From Tsukamurella paurometabola DSM 20162 (GTDB lineage: Bacteria > Actinomycetota > Actinomycetes > Mycobacteriales > Mycobacteriaceae): DNA of 64,000 nucleotides. Made by a program: the position numbers and the translations under genes. This document shows, piece after piece, positions 3,284 to 51,996 of the stretch (positions within the stretch are counted from its first letter, which is position 1; the number at the start of each line of letters is the position of its first letter). The notes under the pieces were generated by a model. It saw only the letters and a program-made list of their open reading frames with translations. It searched no databases and was not told the DNA's origin. The stretch spans positions 2,232,001-2,296,000 of the forward strand of contig NC_014158.1 in NCBI RefSeq assembly GCF_000092225.1. The letters run 5' to 3'.

Positions 3284-7015
<3,732 letters not shown>

Positions 7016-7022
7016 GTACGTT

Positions 7023-7102
7023 CCTTCCGTAGCGGAAGGCGTCCTTGGCTCGCCGAGCGTGGCGGATACCGGGGCCCGGAACCGTTGCAACGCCTCTCGA
7101 CC
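7023..7102 (-). promoter_or_regulatory. Candidate SAH riboswitch in metH leader
   Basis: On the minus strand a -10 box TAGACT (7113-7108) predicts a transcript starting at about 7102 with GGUCGAG. The RNA can form P1 (GUCGAG 7101-7096 with CUCGGC 7057-7052), then GGCGUUGCAAC, close to the GCGCUGCRAC core of SAH (ahcY-motif) riboswitches, a P2 arm (CGG/CCG plus CCGG/CCGG), a CCACGCUCG segment resembling the usual CCAGGCUCG, and a pseudoknot AGGCGU (7095-7090) with ACGCCU (7042-7037). Next comes a perfect 7-bp hairpin CCUUCCG-CUA-CGGAAGG (7039-7023) that masks the metH ribosome binding site. The pseudoknot and that hairpin share bases 7037-7039, so ligand binding would free the ribosome binding site, as in known SAH ON switches. 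The match is by memory and eye. Confidence 0.72.
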
Positions 7103-7186
7103 AGAAAAGTCTACGTCGTCACCGACAGCGTCGCGAACTCGCCAACCGGTGGGTCGTCAACAACCTCTTTGCGGCGTATCCCGCAG

Positions 7187-50940: not shown

Positions 50941-51996
50941 CTATTCGCCGTGGTGTGGGGGAGCGATCACCAGCCGGTGTTCGCCGGGCGGTGCGCCGCA
51001 TCCTCGGCTGCACGCCACCACATGGATGCGCTCATCGGCGCCGAGTTCACCGGCCAACTCGGCGGCGTGCGCGAGGGCGTCCGCCTCGGCGCGGGCACAG
51101 CCGCGGTCACCGACGCACGCGCTCACCCGCAACCACGGGGAGCCGGCGTCGAAGATCAGGCCCATCGGCGCGAGCACGCGCACGACCGTCTCGGCGGCGT
51201 CCTCGTCGAGGTCGTGCACCAGCAGGGTGCGCCACGGAGTGATCGTGATCGGACGTTCGATCGCGGCGAGGAACAGGGCGGTGCGGGCCGGCAGCCGGCC
51301 GAGGCTAACCCCTGCGCCGAGCGCCACTGTGCCGTCCTCGCGGTCGAACCAGCCGACCGGCGGCGCGGGCACACCATCGGGCACCTCCCGGCCGGTGACC
51401 GTACCCCCGAGGGCCGCGGCCACCCGTGCGGCACCATCGGCGAGATCCCGGATCCGCCACTCGTCGGCGCGCAGGTCGAGGAAGGCCTGGGCGGCGTCGA
51501 GCATCATCTCGGTGGTGCCCGGGAGGTCGGTGCTGTGGCCGTCGAGATGGAGCACGCCGTCGCGGGATTCGACGTCGGCGATCAGCGAGGCGATATCGCC
51601 GCTGCCGTCGTCGAAGGCGAACAGGAACCGTCCGGGGAGCGCTGCGAGTGCTGCGCGGTCGATCAGGGCCGCATCGAGTTCCGCGGCGCGCGCCGCCTGC
51701 GGGTGGGCCAGCGGGGAGGCCACGATATTGCGGACCCGCTCGTGAGTGGAGGAGGGAAGCAAGCCCGCTGCCGACAGCGCGGCCCGCGCCGCGTCGAGGT
51801 CGCGGACGCCCCGCACCTGGACGTTACCGCGCGAGGTCAGCTCGATATCACCGCCGTCCGCGAGCTCTGCGAGCACCTCCAACTGGGCCGCTGTGAGGCG
51901 GCCTCCGGGCAGCCGGACGCGCACCAGCGCGCCATCGGCCGCGGCGTGCGGCCGGAGTACGCCGGGGCAGTTGTCGGGCTGCCGGTCGGAGATCAG
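50941..51996 (-). CDS. cobG: CobG, precorrin-3B synthase, with non-standard start
   Basis: 351 residues if begun at CTG 51996. The nitrite/sulfite-reductase-like fold is seen in RVRLPGGRLTAAQLEVLAELADGGDIELTSRGNVQVRG, and the Fe-S/siroheme-type cysteines in ACVGDRGCARA and CSRGCGAPPGEH. It hydroxylates precorrin-3A at C20. The first ordinary start, GTG 51924, would cut off the conserved DNCPGVL...AADGALV block that CobG proteins carry. Upstream in frame only CTG 51996 (CTGA overlap with the fabH stop, behind AAGGAGGA) or ATC 51993 is possible. Confidence 0.85.
   Translation of the reverse strand: MISDRQPDNCPGVLRPHAAADGALVRVRLPGGRLTAAQLEVLAELADGGDIELTSRGNVQVRGVRDLDAARAALSAAGLLPSSTHERVRNIVASPLAHPQAARAAELDAALIDRAALAALPGRFLFAFDDGSGDIASLIADVESRDGVLHLDGHSTDLPGTTEMMLDAAQAFLDLRADEWRIRDLADGAARVAAALGGTVTGREVPDGVPAPPVGWFDREDGTVALGAGVSLGRLPARTALFLAAIERPITITPWRTLLVHDLDEDAAETVVRVLAPMGLIFDAGSPWLRVSACVGDRGCARAEADALAHAAELAGELGADERIHVVACSRGCGAPPGEHRLVIAPPHHGE

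Follow-up and report, generated by a model that had tools for sequence, protein, structure and literature searches.

The described systems closest to the element analysed here are the SAH riboswitches of the ahcY motif (Rfam family RF01057). In the crystal structure, as described in the accessible part of PMC7057144, the adenine of SAH is sandwiched between C16 and A29 and is bonded by G15, and C46 adjoins the homocysteine tail of the ligand. In proteobacteria, the core targets of these riboswitches are ahcY and metF, with metH as a target in Comamonadaceae, and metK is not controlled, as far as the accessible text of PMC4239095 states. SAH riboswitches have also been mentioned for Mycobacteriaceae (PMC3766115, accessible part).

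The leader of metH in Tsukamurella paurometabola very probably carries an SAH riboswitch that is a diverged member of family RF01057 and acts as a translational ON switch. An earlier note, made from the DNA letters of the window (the whole stretch of 64,000 nucleotides that was analysed), had described a -10 box, P1, a core, a pseudoknot and a hairpin over the Shine–Dalgarno (SD) sequence, and all of these were found on the minus strand at the places claimed. Going from the promoter towards the coding sequence, the features are as follows.

7108..7113, minus strand: -10 promoter box TAGACT, recognized from the sequence, with TA(G/T/A)ACT at this position in each of the 16 metH leaders
7096..7101, minus strand: 5' strand of P1, GUCGAG, pairing with CUCGGC
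7090..7095, minus strand: 5' strand of the pseudoknot, AGGCGU, forming 6 bp with ACGCCU
7087..7089, minus strand: pocket bases U14, G15 and C16, invariant in 100 of 100 aligned relatives
7080..7084, minus strand: 5' strand of P2, CGGUU, with covariation in relatives
7063..7067, minus strand: 3' strand of P2, AUCCG, from sequence and covariation
7058..7060, minus strand: pocket bases A29, C30 and G31, each invariant in 100 of 100 relatives
7052..7057, minus strand: 3' strand of P1, CUCGGC, from sequence and covariation
7043..7046, minus strand: A44, A45, G46 and G47, with G46 in 95 of the 95 relatives that have a letter there
7037..7042, minus strand: 3' strand of the pseudoknot, ACGCCU, whose CCU is also part of the masking hairpin
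7023..7039, minus strand: anti-SD hairpin CCUUCCG-CUA-CGGAAGG, the expression platform (-10.3 kcal/mol), with covariation
7022..7028, minus strand: SD sequence GGAAGGA of metH, from the sequence
3284..7015, minus strand: metH, B12-dependent methionine synthase of 1243 aa, an open reading frame with a GTG start at 7015-7013

The numbering of the pocket bases is that of the Ralstonia construct. The -10 box begins 15 to 17 bases before GAG in all 16 metH leaders (TAGACT in 14, TATACT in one and TAAACT in one), and the transcript is predicted to start at about 7104-7101 on the minus strand. The core of the T. paurometabola element, read on the minus strand, is GGCGUUGCAAC; its 5-bp P2 has a U.U mismatch in place of one pair. 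The start of metH in the listed open reading frame was moved to the GTG behind the SD; the encoded protein carries the Pfam domains S-methyl_trans, Pterin_bind, B12-binding_2, B12-binding and Met_synt_B12.

The anti-SD hairpin is a perfect 7-bp stem, CCUUCCG (7039-7033) paired with CGGAAGG (7029-7023), that lies over the SD, and its bases 7039-7037 are common to the hairpin and the pseudoknot, which is the three-base overlap that had been claimed. Because these bases are shared, a pseudoknot stabilized by ligand should free the SD, an anatomy that points to a translational ON switch. At low SAH, the 3' pseudoknot strand would be held in the 7-bp hairpin that hides the metH SD, and translation would be low. 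Accumulating SAH would bind between P1, P2 and the pseudoknot; the shared CCU would be drawn into the pseudoknot, and the masking hairpin would open and leave the ribosome binding site free. MetH would then rise, and the homocysteine derived from SAH would be remethylated. We infer SAH as the ligand, ON as the direction, and a translational rather than a transcriptional output for this leader.

Without ligand, the masked state is the computed minimum (-39.7 kcal/mol). The nested minimum-energy fold of the leader, obtained with a program that is blind to pseudoknots, is no better than the folds of shuffled sequence (z 0.03). When the pseudoknot strands are blocked in the computation, the SD comes to lie largely in a loop and the GUG start pairs with bases of the old hairpin, so that the freed state, in this model, may be partly closed and not fully open.

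The RF01057 model matches the leader from end to end (model positions 1-78 of 78) with 23.8 bits and an E-value of 0.013 (251 nt, 4227 families), which does not reach the gathering score of 37 bits, a value that serves as an annotation cut-off and is not an anatomical feature. An Rfam scan of the window at the gathering threshold returned no matches, a result that, taken alone, would have refuted the assignment. Within the 4.48-Mb genome the leader has the best RF01057 score (E 0.054 there). The runner-up, at 51628-51698 of the window on the plus strand (17.0 bits, E 2.06), is probably a chance match. A loose search with RF01057 (E 5) also gave matches in 7 of 14 control genomes, so that a weak score alone is little proof; at E 0.001 the model found nothing in the own genome and nothing in any control genome. 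Across the genus, RF01057 matches at E up to 5 are mostly at chance level, and in the metH-bearing genomes G000 and G014 the best match of each stands before metH. The model of the SAM/SAH riboswitch (RF01727) gave no match to the leader up to E 10.

The same family model was applied to relatives. In an all-Rfam scan of 20 of them, 17 match RF01057 at E 0.1 and seven lie above the cut-off; no RF01057 match was obtained at this E-value for L047, L072 and L126, L047 and L072 being close relatives. With Rfam's own model at E 0.01, 53 of 345 class genomes match, 16 of them above the cut-off and the own genome not among the 53, and the element occurs in 17 of the 126 genera of this sample. Full-length homology to RF01057 is therefore found by way of intermediates that score above the cut-off. 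Since only 7 of the 20 relatives and 16 of the 53 matching genomes exceed that score, annotation of Actinobacteria likely underestimates the family. The covariance-model search suggested in the earlier note has thus yielded a match above the cut-off in part of the relatives and a weak, sub-threshold one in T. paurometabola itself.

The anatomy of the leader is a matter of direct observation, as are its conservation and covariation and its gene context. A search with the MetH N-terminus against 201 family genomes (E 1e-60) found this metH in 16, and the element stands in the same place in all 16 leaders, 13 of which come from one genus, g30 (Mycobacterium). In the own genus (G000-G015), this metH occurs in 2 of 16 genomes only at the same threshold; metH and its switch look accessory within the genus, and, given this distribution, horizontal transfer of metH together with the riboswitch was considered. 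A covariance model built from the 16 metH leaders (R1) was run on two larger samples. At the family level, 56 of 401 genomes, from 7 of 31 genera, carry the element; at the order level it occurs in 86 of 298 genomes, from 25 of 76 genera, and 17 of these 86 have two copies. A DNA pattern scan of named genomes returned at least 120 stretches; 79 of the 80 loci listed are actinobacterial by title, and their genera include Mycobacterium, Amycolatopsis, Micromonospora, Actinoplanes, Kribbella, Frankia, Nocardia and others. We note that an Acidobacteria MAG (L233, genome G930) also carries the element (RF01057 28.5 bits, E 0.0041), by either a binning error or transfer. In a sample of the phylum, model R2 found the element in only 6 of 296 genomes, so its distribution is patchy. 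The earlier note had regarded an actinobacterial copy as exceptional, a view that does not hold: with 25 of 76 order genera, 17 of 126 class genera and the mention in the accessible part of PMC3766115, such copies are common.

Covariation was assessed in an alignment of 100 elements (A2), from which the window's own copy and 12 further loci were left out. The model behind A2 contained P1, P2 and the hairpin, so that their counts lean towards it, whereas the pseudoknot lay outside the model. Of the 1773 cells that make up P1, P2, the pseudoknot and the pair 30/46, 98.6% are standard pairs, and in the structure with the SD hairpin 96.5% of cells are paired, compared with 25 to 48% in a control in which the pairing was slid by 1 to 3 columns. 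For both structures, none of 500 shuffles reaches any of the five covariation measures. The inner four pairs of P1 are 100% paired, and the outer two (93.9% of cells paired) have double-sided changes in some sequences; two pairs of P2 vary, with 29 and 49 double changes. The pseudoknot helix is paired in 99.5% of cells, and its last pair is C-G in 62, U-A in 33 and unpaired in one of the 96 sequences with letters there. At one stem position of the anti-SD hairpin, 50 of the 100 sequences have C-G and 37 have U-A; the pair that closes the loop is present in only 66.3% of cells. The T. paurometabola copy forms the pairs of A2 save one in P2. Evidence from the first 16 leaders alone is mixed: a single double change occurs in the pseudoknot, and of 500 shuffles 22 have at least as many doubly changed pairs as the structure with the pseudoknot; for the structure with the hairpin, 142 of 500 do. 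Across the 100 relatives, P1, P2 and the pseudoknot covary, and the pairs of the masking hairpin do so as well; the covariation check suggested in the earlier note has come out in favour of its reading.

These compensatory changes bear on whether the symmetry of the leader belongs to an RNA at all. A DNA-level operator, or inverted repeats that arose by chance near the promoter, would account for an element that is G+C rich and starts right at the promoter, and for the ordinary energy of the nested fold, but would not account for changes that keep the RNA pairs, at a covariation score reached by 0 of 500 shuffles. Because of this covariation, we consider such an origin extremely unlikely.

The genes behind the element were tabulated for 152 loci, comprising 72 family and order matches (which omit the own genus, Mycobacterium and G026) and the 80 loci listed from the named scan, with several organisms in both sets. 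Among these listed loci, the first gene is metH in 93, ahcY in 40, an adenosine deaminase gene in five, a methyltransferase gene in five, a MOSC-domain gene in three and metK in two; four loci are without a gene class, two of them because the sequence stretch ends there. Of the 148 loci assigned, 140 thus have metH, ahcY, adenosine deaminase or metK, placing the element before genes of the SAH and methionine cycle, and the downstream enzymes mostly act in the removal of SAH or adenosine or in the regeneration of methionine and SAM. Pfam confirms one exemplar per gene class and two for metH (seven exemplars and the window protein). For the 30 matches that were read from the class search by Rfam's own model, the gene that follows is metH in 29 and ahcY in one. 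Directly behind the element are the adenosine deaminase genes at L102, L128, L156, L158 and L184, the MOSC-domain genes at L131, L138 and L140, and the methyltransferase genes at L133, L146, L155, L157 and L206; metK lies behind it at L123 and L124, in two genomes of one genus. At L174 and L201, none of the seven exemplars had a match in place within the 2.7 kb that follow.

The region that follows the aptamer differs between the two most frequent targets. Among the loci listed, a U-tract follows a hairpin overlapping the pseudoknot strand in 21 of 40 ahcY copies versus 2 of 93 metH copies. This arrangement, which resembles an intrinsic terminator, lies just after the element in ahcY loci such as L100, L106, L121, L136 and L145. 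Judged from these letters, the ahcY copies look like a transcription-termination platform, and the actinobacterial copies seem to have two kinds of output, either masking of the SD or a terminator-like hairpin. This pattern also weighs on the notion of a structured leader without a ligand, i.e., an RNA thermometer or a protein-binding leader whose function would depend on the SD hairpin only. Such a leader would be served by a hairpin that is perfect, stable (-10.3 kcal/mol) and covarying, but a whole aptamer with an invariant pocket has been kept across many genera, and a thermometer would have no need of the aptamer before ahcY, where a terminator-like hairpin often takes the place of SD masking; we judge this notion very improbable.

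The reading of the leader as an SAH riboswitch, put forward in the earlier note, is instead supported by the model match, by the covariation and by the SAM/SAH-cycle genes behind the homologues. The available computational tests, with the exception of the Rfam cut-off and of the consensus at positions 30 and 46, identify the element as an SAH riboswitch, the T. paurometabola copy being a diverged member of an actinobacterial variant.

The ligand-contacting bases G15, C16 and A29 are present in the window copy and do not change in any of the 100 relatives. Position 30 is C in 100 of 100 sequences of A2, whereas the Rfam consensus, CCAGGCUCG, has G there, and position 46 is G in all 95 A2 sequences with a letter at this place, whereas the consensus has C; the actinobacterial copies therefore lack the consensus G30 and C46. 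The models or patterns that selected A2 and the loci of the named scan were actinobacterial and contained C30, and only the class search with Rfam's own model is free of that; C30/G46 is present in 30 of the 30 matches read from this search (of 53, three of the 30 being also among the first 16 leaders). The pair 30/46 is constant within A2, which makes A2 silent on whether the two bases pair. Because both differ together from the consensus, the sequences suggest that bases 30 and 46 pair with each other, and because both positions change together we read C30/G46 as a lineage variant. A viral-contig pattern scan contained no proteobacterial copies of the G30/C46 type, and a plasmid ahcY search for such copies returned mostly Streptomyces (49 of 82 records, 60 of the 82 being listed), so that the contrast at 30/46 is drawn against the Rfam consensus line.

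The exchange raises the question of specificity. A homologous aptamer with a changed ligand, in which the C30/G46 form senses SAM, both SAM and SAH, or a related adenosyl compound before the same genes, would agree with the occurrence of C30, and of G46 where a letter is present, in every actinobacterial copy read, and with the location of position 46 near the homocysteine tail in the crystal structure (PMC7057144, accessible part). The adenine-binding G15, C16 and A29 are unaltered, however, and most of the genes are SAH-removing or methionine-regenerating. SAM sensors usually switch such genes off, whereas here formation of the pseudoknot should free the SD. On these grounds we hold a change of specificity to be improbable.

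With SAH retained as the ligand, we propose, with the balance standing even for and against, an Actinomycetota subclass in which the pocket pair G30-C46 would have become C30-G46, the SAH tail would be held by a different base, and the same pseudoknot strand would drive SD masking (metH, metK and adenosine deaminase) or transcription termination (ahcY). If true, the pocket of a riboswitch would have been rewired throughout a lineage while the ligand stayed the same. Judged by titles and the beginnings of abstracts of the papers listed, with subscription papers mostly outside reach, we found no treatment of an actinobacterial SAH riboswitch or of the C30/G46 form in the literature, and the variant is likely novel. 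That the element belongs to the family is, as such, modest news; of more interest are the uniform exchange at the pocket, the broader range of genes and the two outputs. The natural two-base exchange, which is the same in all copies read, makes it possible to test directly how much these two bases contribute to SAH recognition. For metH of T. paurometabola and of many actinobacteria, the likely signal is the product of methylation itself, which is testable with one small RNA.

Compared with known systems, the element resembles RF01057 in P1, P2, the long-range pseudoknot and G15, C16 and A29, in its place before SAM/SAH-cycle genes, and in an output tied to the 3' pseudoknot strand. It differs from RF01057 in the score of this copy (23.8 bits versus a cut-off of 37), in having C30 and G46 for the consensus G and C, and in the pseudoknot letters of this copy, which are unlike the consensus. 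With the SAM/SAH riboswitch (RF01727) it shares a pseudoknot near the SD and a methionine-cycle gene, whereas RF01727 has another fold and is an OFF switch on metK in Rhodobacterales (PMC7367207 and PMC4239095, accessible parts). Like the proteobacterial SAH riboswitches, as described in the accessible part of PMC4239095, the actinobacterial copies have metH and ahcY as targets and occur once or twice per genome; unlike those reported in that part of the paper, they also stand before adenosine deaminase, MOSC and metK genes.
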